Shown piece after piece: positions 48,676 to 58,498 of a stretch of 58,498 nucleotides of DNA (positions within the stretch are counted from its first letter, which is position 1; each line of letters starts with the position of its first letter). The translations under genes were made by a program, and so were the position numbers. Below the pieces are notes generated by a model. The model was not told the origin of the DNA. It ran no database searches and was given only the letters and a program-made list of their open reading frames with translations. Source of the stretch: Ignavibacteria bacterium (lineage in GTDB: Bacteria > Bacteroidota > Ignavibacteria > UBA10030); assembly GCA_016873805.1 (NCBI GenBank), contig VGVZ01000020.1, positions 1 through 58,498 on the forward strand, written 5' to 3'.

Positions 48676-51174
48676 ATGAAGAGTATGCGCCCAGTCCCCT
48701 GCTATGCATCAATACCTTCGACACTCTTCAGAATAGCGCGTGCGTGTTGCGTCCTCTTTGTGATTGCTGCAGCACTCCAACCGATTGCATCGTCGTTTCC
48801 ATCCTCGACGTTTCAGCTTCCCGAAAGTACTTCAGGCGGCAAAGACTCCACTCTCGCCCCTCCTGTCTTGATGTCACCCGTGAATGGTGCCTCTGATCTG
48901 AAGGAGAATGTGCAACTCGAATGGCAAAGCGTCGTTCATGCGACAGCGTACGACGTCGAGGTTTCGACGAAAAGCAATTTTGGCGGATCTCCCGTTTTCG
49001 AGTCATCGATGGCCCACACAAGCGCAGGTCTGAGTGGGTTGACCGGCGGCACGACATACTTCTGGCGTGTGCGAGCAAGAGACGGGAATCGCAAGAGCAA
49101 CTGGTCGGAACAACAATTCACAATTCAGAAAGCGCAAATCGGCGTTCCCCAACTGAGCGCACCGGCAGATAACTCAACAAGTGTATCGACCAGTGTAACA
49201 CTCTCATGGGGGGGAGTCCCAGGCGCCACAGGATACAACGTTCAACTATCAACGAAGCAGAACTTCAGCGAATTCATCGTCAATGCGAGTCATCATCCGT
49301 CGACACAGCTGGCACTCTCTGGTCTGGAGCCGAATCAACGATACTACTGGCATGTTTCGGCGGCGGATAGCGGGGGATCCGGCTCCTGGTCCGATACATG
49401 GAGCTTCCGGACAGAGAAGAAACCGCTCGGCGGTGTTCAACTGCTCTCGCCGCCGGACAATGCTACAGAGTTGCCCACGAGTGTGACGCTGTCGTGGCAA
49501 AGCGTGGAGGGGGCGACGGGATACAATATTCAAATGTCCACGAAGCAAAACTACAGTGACTATGTCGTTAACGCTACCGGATATACCCAAACGAGCATCG
49601 GCGTTTCAGGATTGGACAACAACCAGAATTACTACTGGCGCGTTTCGGCGTCGGATGCCGGTGGATCCGGCGGTTGGTCGTCGACATGGAGTTTCCGGAC
49701 GGCGAAGAAACCGTTGGGGGGTGTTCAGCTGATTTCCCCGCCGGATAACGCAACGGATGTTCCACCAAACGTGACACTCTCATGGCAGAGTGTTGAGGGA
49801 GCAACGGGATATACGGTTCAAGTTTCGACCAAGCAGAACTTCAATGACCTTCTGGTAAACGGATCGGTAACCGGCACCACCTATGCGCTGTCGGGACTGG
49901 ACAACAACCAGAATTACTACTGGCGCGTTTCGGCAACGGATGCCGGTGGATCCGGCGGTTGGTCGTCGACATGGAGTTTCCGGACGGTGAAGAAACCGTT
50001 GGGGGGTGTTCAGCTGATTTCCCCGCCGGATAACGCAACGGATGTTCCACCAAACGTGACACTCTCATGGCAGAGTGTCGAGGGAGCAACGGGATATACG
50101 GTTCAGGTTTCGACGAAGCAGAATTTCAATGACCTTCTGGTGAACGGATCGGCAACCGGCACCACCTATGCGCTGTCGGGATTGGACAACAACCAGAATT
50201 ACTACTGGCGCGTTTCGGCGTCGGATGCCGGTGGATCCGGCGGTTGGTCGTCGACATGGAGTTTCCGGACGGCGAAGAAACCGTTGGGGGGTGTTCAGCT
50301 GATTTCCCCGCCGGATAACGCAACGGATGTTCCACCAAACGTGACACTCTCATGGCAGAGTGTTGAGGGAGCAACGGGATATACGGTTCAAGTTTCGACC
50401 AAGCAGAACTTCAATGACCTTCTGGTAAACGGATCGGTAACCGGCACCACCTATGCGCTGTCGGGACTGGACAACAACCAGAATTACTACTGGCGCGTTT
50501 CAGCGTCGGATGCTGTTGGATCTGGCGGTTGGTCATCGACCTGGGGCTTCCGGACGATGCACAAACCCGGACCACCTGCTCCCAGACTTCTCAGACCGCC
50601 GCACAATGCAAGAGGAATTTCCACAAGCCCACAGATCGTGTGGACCAGCGCACCGAGCGCGACGGGATATTCGTTGGAGCTCTCAACGTCGGAGTCGTTC
50701 TCATCATCGACCACCGTGGTGAGGTTAAGCGGAATCCCCGACACAAATGTTTCGTTGCAGGGACTCGACAACAATACGAGGTACTACTGGCGTGTCCGCG
50801 CCACCGATAGCGGCGTTGTCGGCGATTGGTCAACCGTGAACGCATTTGAGACCGGCAGTATTACATCAGCAGAAACGTTCGATGCGATGCCGGCCGACTT
50901 CGTACTGCGGCAGAACCACCCAAATCCATTCAATCCTTCCACCACGATTCAGTTTCACCTCCCCGTATCGAGTGAAGTGAAATTGGAAGTGTTTGATGTG
51001 CGCGGCGAAAAGATCTCCACGATCGTTGATGGTGAACGAACGGCCGGGATCTATCGCGTTTCGTGGCACGCACCGTTTCCGAGCGGTACGTACTTCTATC
51101 GGCTCGAGGCAAGGAGCATGCACGATCCGCCCCGCACATTCATCGAGACGAAGAAAATGACCGTTGTGAAATAA
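48676..51174 (+). CDS. Secreted protein with seven fibronectin type III-like repeats and T9SS sorting domain
   Basis: An 832-residue protein. After a signal segment, repeats start near residues 62, 157, 248, 344, 439, 534 and 629; each has the pattern P-D-N-A-T ... V-T-L-S-W-Q-S-V ... Y-Y-W-R-V-S-A-x-D ... W-S-x-T-W-S-F-R-T. Repeats 4-6 are almost identical. The end (about 735-832) carries NHPNPFNPSTTIQFHLP and closes KKMTVVK, a type A T9SS domain. It has no enzyme domain, so a structural, adhesive or binding role at the surface is likely. Confidence 0.9.
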   Translation: MKSMRPVPCYASIPSTLFRIARACCVLFVIAAALQPIASSFPSSTFQLPESTSGGKDSTLAPPVLMSPVNGASDLKENVQLEWQSVVHATAYDVEVSTKSNFGGSPVFESSMAHTSAGLSGLTGGTTYFWRVRARDGNRKSNWSEQQFTIQKAQIGVPQLSAPADNSTSVSTSVTLSWGGVPGATGYNVQLSTKQNFSEFIVNASHHPSTQLALSGLEPNQRYYWHVSAADSGGSGSWSDTWSFRTEKKPLGGVQLLSPPDNATELPTSVTLSWQSVEGATGYNIQMSTKQNYSDYVVNATGYTQTSIGVSGLDNNQNYYWRVSASDAGGSGGWSSTWSFRTAKKPLGGVQLISPPDNATDVPPNVTLSWQSVEGATGYTVQVSTKQNFNDLLVNGSVTGTTYALSGLDNNQNYYWRVSATDAGGSGGWSSTWSFRTVKKPLGGVQLISPPDNATDVPPNVTLSWQSVEGATGYTVQVSTKQNFNDLLVNGSATGTTYALSGLDNNQNYYWRVSASDAGGSGGWSSTWSFRTAKKPLGGVQLISPPDNATDVPPNVTLSWQSVEGATGYTVQVSTKQNFNDLLVNGSVTGTTYALSGLDNNQNYYWRVSASDAVGSGGWSSTWGFRTMHKPGPPAPRLLRPPHNARGISTSPQIVWTSAPSATGYSLELSTSESFSSSTTVVRLSGIPDTNVSLQGLDNNTRYYWRVRATDSGVVGDWSTVNAFETGSITSAETFDAMPADFVLRQNHPNPFNPSTTIQFHLPVSSEVKLEVFDVRGEKISTIVDGERTAGIYRVSWHAPFPSGTYFYRLEARSMHDPPRTFIETKKMTVVK
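49705..50559 (+). repeat. Three near-identical 285-bp tandem repeats inside the Fn3 gene
   Basis: Units begin at 49705, 49990 and 50275. Units 1 and 3 are identical through most of their length (about the first 230 bases), whereas unit 2 differs from both at the same scattered sites, for example TTGAGGG versus TCGAGGG. The next repeat upstream (49417) is 288 bases and more divergent. Confidence 0.9.
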
Positions 51175-55947: not shown

Positions 55948-56955
55948 CTATCGCTTCCCATGGAGGAATTCTTCGGCGAGGGCGACATCTTCATCGCTGC
56001 CGATGAAGAGAGGAGTGCGCTGGTGAAGTTCCGTCGGCGTGACATCGAGAATGCGTTTCCGGCCGTTGCTTGCGCGTCCTCCCGCCTGTTCCATGACAAA
56101 GGACATCGGATTCGCTTCGTAGAGCAGGCGAAGCTTCCCATTCGGATTTCGCTGGTCGGCGGGGTACATGAAGATCCCGCCGTACATGAGCGTCCGGTGA
56201 ATGTCGCCGATCATCGAACCGATGTAGCGTGAGGTGTAGGGCCGGTTTGTGGATTTGTCATCTTCCTGGAGAAACTTGATGAACTTCTTGACGCCCTCAT
56301 CCCAGAACCGATAGTTCCCCTCGTTGATGCTGTAGATCTTTCCCCGCTTTGGTACGCGGAGGTTTTCGTGGGAGAGGAGGAACTCACCAATGCTTGGATC
56401 GAGAGTGAATCCATGAACGCCGTCGCCGGTTGAATAGATCAACATCGTGGAAGAGCCGTAGATCGCATAGCCCGCGGCAATCTGTTTGTATCCCGGCTGG
56501 AGGCAGTCGTCCAGCGTTCCCTTCCCTCCGGGGCTGACGCGCCGATAGATGGAGAAGACGGTCCCGATCGTGATGTTGACATCGATGTTTGACGACCCGT
56601 CGAGCGGATCATACAGAAGGACATATTTCCCCTTGGGATACGCATCGGGAATGTTCAGCGCTTCTTCGTGCTCCTCGGAGGCCATAATGCAGAGATGCCC
56701 GGTGTGATCCATCGCTTTGCACACGGTCTCGTCGGCGAAGGCATCGAGTTTCTTGACTTGCTCGCCGTGGATATTCTCCTTGCCGGTGAGCCCGATGATA
56801 TCGACAAGTCCGGCCTTACTGACTTCCCTGTGGATGACCTTAAACGCGAGGGTAAGGTCTCTCAGCAGCGCAGAGAATTCACCGCTCGCGCCGGGGTGTG
56901 CACGTTCGCCCTCGATGATATGCCGTTCAATAGTGACGATTTTGGATTGTTTCAT
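55948..56955 (-). CDS. fbp: Fructose-1,6-bisphosphatase class I
   Basis: A 335-residue gluconeogenic enzyme. The metal site is LLYDPLDGSSNIDVN, the substrate region GGIFMYPADQRNPNGKLRLLYE, and AGGRASNG near the C-terminus is typical. I start at ATG 56955 (MKQSKIVTIERHI) because this matches usual length; the longer frame covers the promoter. It leads a four-gene minus-strand operon (fbp, exonuclease, pcm, spermidine-synthase-like). Confidence 0.95.
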   Translation of the reverse strand: MKQSKIVTIERHIIEGERAHPGASGEFSALLRDLTLAFKVIHREVSKAGLVDIIGLTGKENIHGEQVKKLDAFADETVCKAMDHTGHLCIMASEEHEEALNIPDAYPKGKYVLLYDPLDGSSNIDVNITIGTVFSIYRRVSPGGKGTLDDCLQPGYKQIAAGYAIYGSSTMLIYSTGDGVHGFTLDPSIGEFLLSHENLRVPKRGKIYSINEGNYRFWDEGVKKFIKFLQEDDKSTNRPYTSRYIGSMIGDIHRTLMYGGIFMYPADQRNPNGKLRLLYEANPMSFVMEQAGGRASNGRKRILDVTPTELHQRTPLFIGSDEDVALAEEFLHGKR

Positions 56956-57068
56956 TCCAGCAAACTCCGGTACGATCGCACAATGATGAAGGTGGGAGGG
57001 ATGCGGCGTTCGTTCAGTCCGAATCAACGGCTCTCGTGAAAGAGCGGCCTCCGTTGCGGACACGTGCC

Positions 57069-57097: not shown

Positions 57098-57456
57098 TCG
57101 ACGAGAGCTCGCGCATTTGCGTTCACTGATCCGTGTCTCATTGATGAGTCCTTTTAATGTCGTTTGTCAGGCCGATCGAGCAAGGAGAAAGGGATTGCGA
57201 CTTTTGCTTACCTATGTTTTTTGGTATATTGGCGCCGGAGGCAAGCATGATGCCCAACGGTGAGAGGAGAGCCAGCACCATGATATTTGGCCTAATCTTG
57301 AGGCTCTCAGTGAAGAAGAATAGGCACTGGAGTCATGGTGCCATTTCATTCCGTCAAAATTCTTCATCTAAAGACTGTGTAACTAATTGAGGATGCCGTA
57401 GAGAAAACAACCATCGAATAGCAATCACTAACATAGCGTAGCTTCGGCTGCTGTCT

Positions 57457-57606
57457 TGACCTGAAAACTCGCAATTTTCAAACCGACAAGATGGAGCCGG
57501 TCTGCGCCCCGAAAGGGGCGTGGGCTGGTGAATCCTTTGTCGGTGGGCATGCGAGTGCCTCAGGTCAGAGGGTCATCGGTTTCAAGCCCTTTGTTTTTCT
57601 GAGGCA
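57457..57606 (+). ncRNA. Strongly folded element, candidate structured RNA with alternative hairpin
   Basis: Five nested stems: TGACCTGA (57457-57464)/TCAGGTCA (57560-57567); ACTCGCA (57467-57473)/TGCGAGT (57550-57556); CCGACAA (57483-57489)/TTGTCGG (57537-57543); AGCC (57495-57498)/GGCT (57523-57526); CGCCCC (57505-57510)/GGGGCG (57515-57520) with a GAAA tetraloop. A competing hairpin TGCCTCAG (57556-57563)/CTGAGGCA (57599-57606) shares bases with the outer stems and is followed by a T-rich run. No protein frame crosses it. The strand is assumed from the following genes. It matches no RNA class I recognise. Confidence 0.5.
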
Positions 57607-57657
57607 TTTCTATTTTAGCCCACCACAAACGATTCAGCCGATCTTGTAACCGCCAGA

Positions 57658-57757
57658 TGTCATTCTGAGTCCCGACAACGTCGGGACGAAGAATCTGACT
57701 CAACTGGGTAATTCAGATTCTTCACTTCGTCCCTACGGGACTTCGTTCAGAATGACA
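57658..57757. repeat. 100-bp inverted repeat of the GTCATTCTGA/GAAGAATCT type
   Basis: TGTCATTCTGA (57658-57668) pairs with TCAGAATGACA (57747-57757), and GAAGAATCTGA (57688-57698) with TCAGATTCTTC (57713-57723). Each arm also has a small hairpin (GTCCCGAC/GTCGGGAC; GTCCC/GGGAC). Repeats with these ends are common in many environmental bacterial genomes; none carries a gene. Confidence 0.75.
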
Positions 57758-57826
57758 TTGGGAGGCAAGACACACCGAAGCTCCTTGTCCCGTTACGCTT
57801 CAAAACGGGACCAACTCACGGAGCTT

Positions 57827-58189
57827 ATGCCCCAACCTCGATACGACCAGCACGGTCGCTTACTTTCTGATGCAGAATTCATCCAGCGCTTTGCTGAAGC
57901 GGTAACGGCCAACGTCATCGCGCACTACGAATGCGGCTTCACCAAAGACGACCTCAAAGTCGGTGTGACGCCGGAAGGCTGCGTTGTTGCGACCAAAAAG
58001 ACGTACTTCGAAACACCCATCCCCAACCGACTCTCCCCAGAAGAATTCCAACGCTTAGGCAACACACTCGCCGCTCTCCTTGACTCGATTGATGCGCGCA
58101 CGGTTGATGCAGAGATGATCGAGCGGATCAGGCGGGAGAATGATGTGGAGCAAAAGAAGCAAGCAATTTCGGAGGCAAGAAGAAGATGA
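57827..58189 (+). CDS. Hypothetical protein upstream of a radC homologue
   Basis: A 120-residue cytoplasmic protein. It starts MPQPRYDQHGRLLSDAEFIQ at ATG 57827 (GGAG upstream); a longer frame from 57752 enters the inverted repeat and is not used. The chain is helical and charged with a compact middle (HYECGFTKDDLKVGV) and a Lys/Arg-rich end. Its stop overlaps the radC-like ATG by four bases (ATGA), so the pair is co-translated. No family recognised. Confidence 0.65.
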   Translation: MPQPRYDQHGRLLSDAEFIQRFAEAVTANVIAHYECGFTKDDLKVGVTPEGCVVATKKTYFETPIPNRLSPEEFQRLGNTLAALLDSIDARTVDAEMIERIRRENDVEQKKQAISEARRR

Positions 58190-58380
58190 AGAGAAAGTCG
58201 GTCTGGAGACACGGTCGAGTAAAGGAGGAAATCGGAGAACACAAACAGTGGAAGCACCCGGGTGGAAAACTCCGCGAGCTTGGTCCAGAAGCACTTACAA
58301 TTGAAGAACTCATCGCCATTCTCATTTCCACGGGAACCAAGGGGAAGTCCGCTACGGAGATTGCTCGGGCACTAGTGCCG
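58186..58380 (+). pseudogene. RadC-family gene interrupted after its N-terminal domain
   Basis: The frame encodes a RadC/UPF0758 N-terminus: KLRELGPEALTIEELIAILI followed by STGTKGKSATEIARALV, the helix-hairpin-helix part. From about 58380 the sequence turns A/T-rich, the family match ends, and the frame closes with unrelated residues at 58479. The JAB/MPN metalloprotease-like C-terminal domain is missing from the window. Insertion of a mobile element is the simplest reading; the rest may lie beyond the edge. Confidence 0.65.
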
Positions 58381-58385
58381 TTTCA

Positions 58386-58498
58386 AAAAAATAATCTTGT
58401 ACTTTTTACAAAGAGTACCTATTATCGGGAAGTCACAGACGAAAGGACTTCTCGATGGCCGTGTATGTTCGTTCTTTGAAAATCGCCGAAGGCAAGAG
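58386..58498 (+). mobile_element. Left end of a probable insertion sequence (partial)
   Basis: Base composition changes sharply after 58380. The segment contains the palindromic GTACTTTTT ... AAAGAGTAC and then a new start codon with ribosome site at 58455. The boundary is approximate and the other end is outside the window. Confidence 0.4.
58455..58498 (+). CDS. 5' end of a probable transposase gene (partial)
   Basis: AAAGGA precedes ATG 58455 by seven bases, and the frame stays open to the window edge, reading MAVYVRSLKIAEGK. Fourteen residues cannot identify a family. A transposase is suggested only by the position inside the sequence that breaks radC. Confidence 0.35.
   Translation, partial: MAVYVRSLKIAEGK

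Follow-up and report, generated by a model that had tools for sequence, protein, structure and literature searches.

The purine riboswitch is a transcription-terminating riboswitch with a loop-loop contact, and attenuators of the trp type work through a choice between 2:3 and 3:4 pairing. For restriction-modification systems, passages of one source describe EcoRI and Eco29kI as type II systems controlled by antisense RNAs from reverse promoters (PMC3874152). For the phylum studied here, excerpts of the literature present Flavo-1 and other Bacteroidetes/Chlorobi motifs as orphan structured RNAs (Weinberg et al. 2010, PMC2864571), with Flavo-1 described in sense or antisense of transcribed regions (PMC9723704).

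We analysed an element within a stretch of 58,498 nucleotides (the window) from an Ignavibacteria bacterium, contig VGVZ01000020.1. Judged from sequence comparison, it belongs to what is apparently an uncatalogued family of folded RNA leaders. Like terminating riboswitches, the family has an aptamer-like fold, a possible loop-loop contact, a strand common to an upstream arm and a terminator, and a co-directional gene; unlike them, it lacks an Rfam match and precedes very mixed target genes. Its three-strand logic, in which A:B would be the antiterminator and B:A' the terminator, resembles that of trp-type attenuators, whereas a large conserved sensor appears to stand where they have a leader peptide. 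RNA-level regulation of restriction-modification genes, as proposed for this family, is a likeness to EcoRI and Eco29kI; unlike the antisense RNAs described in those passages, the leader is sense and common to type I, IIG and III systems. It also differs from Flavo-1 and the related motifs, as far as the excerpts portray them, in matching no Rfam model at gathering score and in being mostly co-directional with its genes.

Fold, covariation and distribution of the element

The first-pass annotation had singled out five nested stems with a GAAA loop as unlikely to arise by chance, and our data agree. The segment 57458-57566 has a minimum free energy of -65.9 kcal/mol against a shuffled mean of -35.8 kcal/mol (z -8.0), and none of 200 dinucleotide shuffles folded as well; the same holds for the wider segment 57440-57630 (z -5.5, 0/200). 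The nested stems are real and conserved, and the GAAA loop is not kept among family members. The true 5' boundary lies at about 57436, upstream of the start first assigned, and adds a small hairpin, P1, followed by the short strand CTGTCTTG. Homology between copies begins at -2/-3 in many pairs. The features are collected in Table 1.

Table 1. Features of the element and its surroundings; positions refer to the window except in the last row.
Feature	Position	Strand	Remarks
5' block GCGTAGCTTCGGCTGCTGTCTT	57436..57457	+	near-invariant in the restriction-modification branch; contains P1
Hairpin P1	57438-57451	+	UUCG loop (cUUCGg)
PK1, 5' strand	57451..57458	+	partner 57487-57494 (CAAGATGG); z 5.9, 0/300 partner shuffles, 70 members
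Core, five nested stems P2-P6	57458..57566	+	fold z -8.0; covariation in 70 sequences
Stem P2	57458-57464/57560-57566	+	
H1	57463..57479	+	stem GAAAA/TTTTC enclosing 5' strand of P3; z 5.1, 0/300 partner shuffles
Stem P3	57467-57473/57550-57556	+	
Stem P4	57482-57490/57536-57544	+	
Strand A (P4a-P5a-P6a)	57482..57510	+	pairs with B; proposed antiterminator arm
Stem P5	57496-57502/57523-57529	+	
Stem P6	57503-57510/57515-57522	+	
GAAA loop	57511-57514	+	caps P6
Strand B (P6b-P5b-P4b)	57513..57540	+	pairs with either A or A'
H2	57545..57560	+	stem GGGCA/TGCCT enclosing 3' strand of P3; z 8.4, 0/300 partner shuffles
Second hairpin	57556-57563/57599-57606	+	TGCCTCAG with CTGAGGCA; present
Strand A'	57565..57592	+	pairs with B (-31.0 kcal/mol in the window, ~25 pairs) or self-folds as P7
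Hairpin P7, inside A'	57567-57573/57586-57592	+	short; -6.2 kcal/mol in the window
T-run TTTGTTTTT	57590..57598	+	proposed intrinsic termination site, from sequence
Tail pairing with 57535-57566	57597..57632	+	holds 3' arm of the second hairpin, 57599-57606
Conserved tail end CAGCCGATC	57635..57643	+	complementary to TCGGCTG of the 5' block; alignment and consensus pairs
Insert between leader and gene	57657..57757	.	palindromic, repeat-like; TGTCATTCTGAG...TCAGAATGACA, ~100 nt
First downstream ORF	57752..58189	+	probable start 57828, MPQPRYDQHG...; no Pfam match
Gene-proximal hairpin	57767..57829	+	AAGACACACCGAAGCTCC...GGAGCTT-ATG; abuts the probable start codon
RadC-like N-terminus	58186..58479	+	UPF0758_N, E 3.6e-11; open frame stops early near the contig end
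Element of locus L188	3466-3624	other strand	

Covariation was assessed in 70 aligned members, namely the window, 14 loci with the 5' block and 55 hand-picked places, mostly high-scoring model matches. In this alignment, which was fitted to the covariance model and is thus biased towards the modelled structure, 94.1% of pair cells form, and of the 51 pairs, counting those of P1 and P7, 45 have changed on both sides; double-change cells number 926. None of 500 shuffles equalled these values (68.7% paired, 36.7 pairs and 253 double-change cells), and pairing fell to 35-47% in a control with slid partners. The first 23 members agree (94.2% paired, 41/51 pairs, 286 double-change cells against 80 shuffled). 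Six antisense-strand model matches overlapping true ones were left out, and a stricter cut-off kept 70 members.

Three interactions, H1, H2 and PK1, lie outside the nested model. The 300 partner shuffles behind their z-scores leave sequence kinship in place, and the scores are support rather than proof. H1 occurs as GAAAA/UUUUC, GUAA/UUAC, GAAUA/UAUUC or UAAAA/UUUUA, and H2 as GGUA/UACC, GGCA/UGCC or GGGA/UCCC; PK1 pairs the strand after P1 (GUUCUU, UGUCUU or variants) with the P4-P5 join (AAGAAC, AAGACA). Because H1 and H2 flank both strands of P3, this helix may not be a plain nested stem but a kissing-loop contact of H1 with H2. In the window, the partner strand of PK1 shares four bases with P4, and therefore PK1 may be an alternative helix instead of a simultaneous pseudoknot. 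The predicted core has the form expected of a riboswitch aptamer, conserved, structured and covarying.

At the DNA level, a search of 100 related genomes gave matches in 14 at E 0.001, counting the genome of the window itself. The 22-base 5' block, with up to two mismatches, was located 16 times in 98 genomes of the order, 15 of which contain it; we used the window and 14 others (L049-L062) and dropped L029 from the counts as a cut or chance match (23.8 bits). A match in Aminicenantes (L009, 24.2 bits, genome E 0.03) was rejected as a chance 22-base pattern inside what appears by eye to be a coding gene. Covariance model R1, built from eight block loci, matched 24 places in 17 of the 98 order genomes at E 0.1 (L029 among them), eight of which have no block within two mismatches. 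Model R2, built from 23 members, was run on 391 genomes of the class, where it matched 73 at E 0.01 with seven candidates scored per genome, and on 395 of the phylum, where it matched 55 at E 1e-4; of the latter, 34 lie outside the window's class. Given these fractions, the distribution is patchy. An outside control, run without a positive genome, gave no match in 199 genomes of another phylum at E 0.01. In 12 genomes chosen for multiple copies, R2 found between 3 and 14 apiece, and the window's own genome holds one copy (next best E 1.67) with one target.

Named contigs with the block, L009 aside, are from Ignavibacteriae, Ignavibacteriales, Chlorobiaceae and Bacteroidota/Bacteroidetes MAGs. 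The other classes are probably mostly Bacteroidia, as suggested by neighbouring TonB-dependent receptors and rteR. Viral contigs contained no stretch with the 5' block and three with a core pattern; of these three, the model recovered L178 alone (E 0.01).

Rfam 15 assigned no family at gathering score to the elements of the window, 18 order or class loci and 20 other-class loci, the sole hits being a tRNA and two neighbouring rteR. Scanned at low threshold, the elements of the window, L157 and L188 yielded no match or matches far below gathering scores. Among the titles and abstract openings listed from open-access PMC none describes this RNA, which may nevertheless appear as an unnamed entry in a large candidate list, and the taxon and gene words searched for are absent from the main text of two discovery papers (PMC11109978, PMC8632094). 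The suggestion of a new structured RNA, to be checked by a covariance-model search of Rfam and a structure-aware search of related genomes, is therefore upheld on both counts: covarying homologues were found and no known family matches.

Alternative pairings around the T-run

Strand B can pair with either A or A', and both alternatives are conserved. Across the 70 members, A:B averages -32.9 kcal/mol (partner-shuffled -20.3) and is on average more stable than B:A', which reaches -27.0 kcal/mol (partner-shuffled -18.6, z -15.5). The A:A' control, at -13.8 versus -12.4 kcal/mol, is not clean in these members, since its z is -4.8. In 21 further rows, 20 from loci of other classes and one from a viral contig, with one strand clipped by the alignment in three (L178, L182, L199), B:A' averages -24.0 versus -18.9 kcal/mol (z -6.5), and A:A' shows no significant excess as a control (26/200 shuffles). 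A column-based count for B:A' gave 78.2% paired cells (69.1% shuffled), a covariation score of 0.36 (0.23 shuffled) and double-change cells above the shuffles, each with 0/500; two further measures were weak, being reached by 10/500 and 87/500 shuffles.

T-rich runs stand at the equivalent place in most family members, among the matches listed. Among the 21 other-class and viral rows, 12 have a P7 that by itself stays weaker than -6 kcal/mol (range over all rows -0.3 to -12.1), and with the much stronger average of B:A' the latter is usually the sole credible stem before the T-run there. In the window's class, P7 alone averages -10.5 kcal/mol and could terminate with A:B formed; the switch logic may therefore differ in that class. 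A simple terminator scan (loops of 3-8) did not flag the element, and a scan for sigma-70-like promoters, the one type scanned, found none in 57200-57900. At the level of predicted pairing, the element has the layout of an attenuator, with mutually exclusive helices that share a strand and a terminator followed by a U-run.

A switch had also been proposed in the first-pass annotation, built on a second hairpin followed by a T-rich run. Conserved, mutually exclusive helices do exist, but the conserved exchange is that of B between A and A' and not the 57556-57606 hairpin. That hairpin can form, but the T-run that fits, at 57590-57598, precedes its 3' arm. It forms the middle of a more extended pairing, between 57535-57566 and 57597-57632, worth about -36.4 to -36.6 kcal/mol in the window. 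In the 15 order loci with the block, this tail:core pairing averages -25.1 versus -17.8 kcal/mol for shuffled partners (0/300), whereas the other 55 loci as a group, L153 included, show no excess (-10.8 versus -10.4 kcal/mol, 37/300). As judged from these pairings, the second hairpin belongs to the tail of a restriction-modification branch, past the T-run.

Beyond this pairing, the tail-end motif is altered in some members. The insert at 57657-57757 is apparently outside the RNA proper; by eye, other loci have different inserts or none at its position. The gene-proximal hairpin is found within two mismatches beside 7 of the 15 block loci and is recognisable by eye in the rest. Copies of this UTR motif away from the block number 8 places in 98 genomes, versus 21 for a reversed control pattern.

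Genes downstream of the leader

ORFs were called with a simple program of our own that misses small genes. On this basis, 50 of 54 class loci have a downstream ORF running in the same direction as the RNA (55 loci, 54 with a called ORF; three of the 50 lie more than 400 bases away); among upstream ORFs the figure is 33 of 50 (Fisher p 0.0011). The first downstream ORF is co-directional in 16 of the 21 rows from other classes and the viral contig. By orientation and nearness, the element would lie in the 5' UTR of a co-directional gene, as an attenuator does. In the window, the upstream ORF (55948-57063, minus strand, fructose-bisphosphatase-like by eye) points away, and the two-gene unit previously noted downstream, a small ORF plus radC, is confirmed by the Pfam match to the RadC N-terminus. 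Homologues of the small ORF precede restriction-modification genes in L052 and L057. At 58380-58498, as seen by eye, a new short frame (ATGGCCGTGTATG...) begins at about 58455, as if an insertion had interrupted radC. Elsewhere, 48676-51174 encodes an 832-aa secreted-protein-like ORF with several near-identical repeats of ~95 aa (by eye).

A branch of the family, marked by the 5' block, is associated with restriction-modification genes: leaving the window aside, the order has 14 loci with the block, and in 13 of them such a gene occupies the first or second ORF position after the RNA. Type III mod and res genes follow in L052, L054, L056, L059, L060 and probably L061; type IIG genes in L049, L057 and L062; type I genes in L053 and, judged by its 92% DNA identity to L053, in L055. 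L051 has a methylase with an S subunit and L050 a DNA methylase. The exception is L058, in which the leader and UTR hairpin are followed by a short ORF, with a Fic gene further on. L056 and L057 have 4.6 kb of upstream sequence and the leader to +189 in common and then continue into different systems (type III versus IIG). The two loci are the same chromosomal site in two genomes, and the upstream genes appear by eye to be helix-turn-helix/S24-like and DUF559-like.

Outside the order, L153 carries the block with one mismatch and precedes a CarboxypepD_reg protein; the block alone thus does not dictate the gene. Restriction-modification genes also stand behind members that lack the block, namely an EcoRI-type methylase (L132), res (L135), a type III mod (L142) and a methylase (L166). 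The window copy is a member of the restriction-modification branch and its downstream operon is probably one of DNA defence; its own restriction-modification system is postulated, because the contig ends after the small ORF and radC.

We scanned the 50 co-directional class products against Pfam, L131 in part. Many had no match; among those that could be recognised are secreted proteins carrying a C-terminal sorting domain, proteins with a receiver domain, NAD_binding_4 reductases, one DinB-type polymerase and restriction-modification proteins. Several partners recur: receiver-domain proteins at L126 and L127 in one genome and L150 in another genus, NAD_binding_4 reductases at L136, L140 and L146 in three genera, and TonB-dependent receptors at L188, L193, L198 and L199 in four genomes of one genus. 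The scanned part of the neighbours in other classes also includes a sigma factor, a cyclic-nucleotide-binding protein and RibD_C proteins. The Pfam content is thus mixed and reveals no common pathway that would point to a ligand. Such variety is unusual for metabolite riboswitches and speaks against one.

At L188, L193 and L199, the RNA precedes a TonB-dependent receptor of ~1000 aa. At L181, L185 and L187, it lies beside RibD_C-type genes, and rteR sRNA matches near L181 and L185 suggest carriage on conjugative elements.

Proposed mechanism and rival explanations

A new structured RNA, of riboswitch-like leader character, is well supported by the comparative evidence; the mostly co-directional genes and the conserved pair of mutually exclusive helices bear out the second half of that description, which had been offered at first pass. 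The element is probably the 5' leader of the downstream operon and would act in cis as a riboswitch-like transcription attenuator. Several results count against this reading: the greater average stability of A:B, the strength of P7 by itself in the window's class, the two weak column measures, the share of only 16 of 21 co-directional ORFs in the other classes and viral contig, the mixed target genes, and the negative terminator and sigma-70-like promoter scans. The partner shuffles behind the B:A' scores likewise leave sequence kinship in place.

The sensor might answer to a protein instead of a small ligand: a regulator, such as an adjacent helix-turn-helix protein or a NusG-like factor, would bind the RNA and set termination versus read-through. 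Small, divergent HTH_3-type genes lie just upstream of the RNA in L182, L188, L193, L194, L195 and L199, a helix-turn-helix/S24-like gene (by eye) lies upstream in L056 and L057, and mixed target functions suit a protein signal better than a metabolite. We nevertheless regard this possibility as rather unlikely, since many loci, the window included, have no such neighbour (mostly by eye) and the core is compact and conserved, a property typical of ligand aptamers. Improbable, too, is a free-standing trans-acting sRNA that ends after P7 or B:A' and whose 5' hairpin (AGCUUCGG...UGUCUU) would bind, by base pairing, the gene-proximal hairpin (AAGACA..CCGAAGCU) in restriction-modification mRNAs, exposing or hiding the start codon. 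The 5' block and the hairpin before the ATG are both conserved in the branch and mutually complementary, the TGTCTC in the block of L030 is matched by GAGACA in its target, and a T-run follows the element. However, this complementarity is within shuffled expectation in each of the 15 single loci (5 to 29 of 100 shuffles as good), and another stretch matches the block better in 6 of the 15; block-to-UTR pairing is disfavoured as a mechanism. In addition, the target motif was not seen by eye behind most other family members, the downstream ORFs are predominantly co-directional, and the window's own genome contains a single copy and a single target.

The idea of a mobile-element end, raised in the first-pass annotation, is not supported, and a DNA-level site that marks swappable cassettes (an integron-like attC, an IS200/IS605-type end or another recombination site) is very improbable. 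Near-identical elements at the single site of L056/L057 do precede different restriction-modification operons, and homology between elements begins sharply in many pairs, but ordinary recombination in a common leader accounts for the swapping of cassettes. In attC arrays, one site follows each cassette gene and carries RYYYAAC/GTTRRRY boxes; here the copies are mostly on separate contigs with few same-contig pairs, no arrays were seen, the nearest two copies are ~2.1 kb apart, and such boxes were not seen by eye at the element ends. The T-run is strand-specific, the genes are mostly co-directional, the mutually exclusive helices covary, the window's own genome holds a single copy, and plasmid and phage collections gave no match for the window element or L157. 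Scarcely credible is a plain intrinsic terminator that serves the upstream gene and has gained extra stems by chance: the element does end in a hairpin and T-run, but the window's upstream gene points away, and paired cells and double changes are maintained over ~165 nt. A lone hairpin with a T-run is ruled out by the covariation of the further conserved structure.

For the attenuator, we propose the following model. If the element is transcribed, as we infer, the nascent RNA would first fold into a compact sensor comprising P1, P2 and the P4-P5-P6 arm with A:B formed, to which P3 may be added as an H1-H2 loop-loop contact and PK1 as a pseudoknot or alternative. As long as A holds B, the long stem with A' would be blocked and the polymerase favoured to read on. 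A change in the state of the sensor, caused by a ligand, ion or protein, would shift B to A', and the resulting hairpin of ~25 pairs right before the T-run would terminate transcription; the direction of this response and the kind of signal are part of the proposal. In the restriction-modification branch, read-through transcripts would gain the tail, whose pairing with the 3' half of the sensor should lock the sensor unfolded.

Extending this model, we tentatively suggest a new riboswitch class, spread across the phylum of Ignavibacteria and, probably, Bacteroidia, in which a kissing-loop sensor is joined to a three-strand terminator switch. One branch would have been taken over by restriction-modification operons of types I, IIG and III, which would be switched at the RNA level by an intracellular signal and latched by the tail after the terminator.

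Taken together, our analysis adds a recurrent orphan leader RNA, with an alignment, a model and a switch hypothesis. Its recurrent partners, including receptors, secreted proteins, receiver-domain proteins and reductases, are handles on the signal. The restriction-modification branch suggests that unrelated restriction systems can have one RNA controller in common, which bears on how restriction-modification operons are restrained upon entering a new host.
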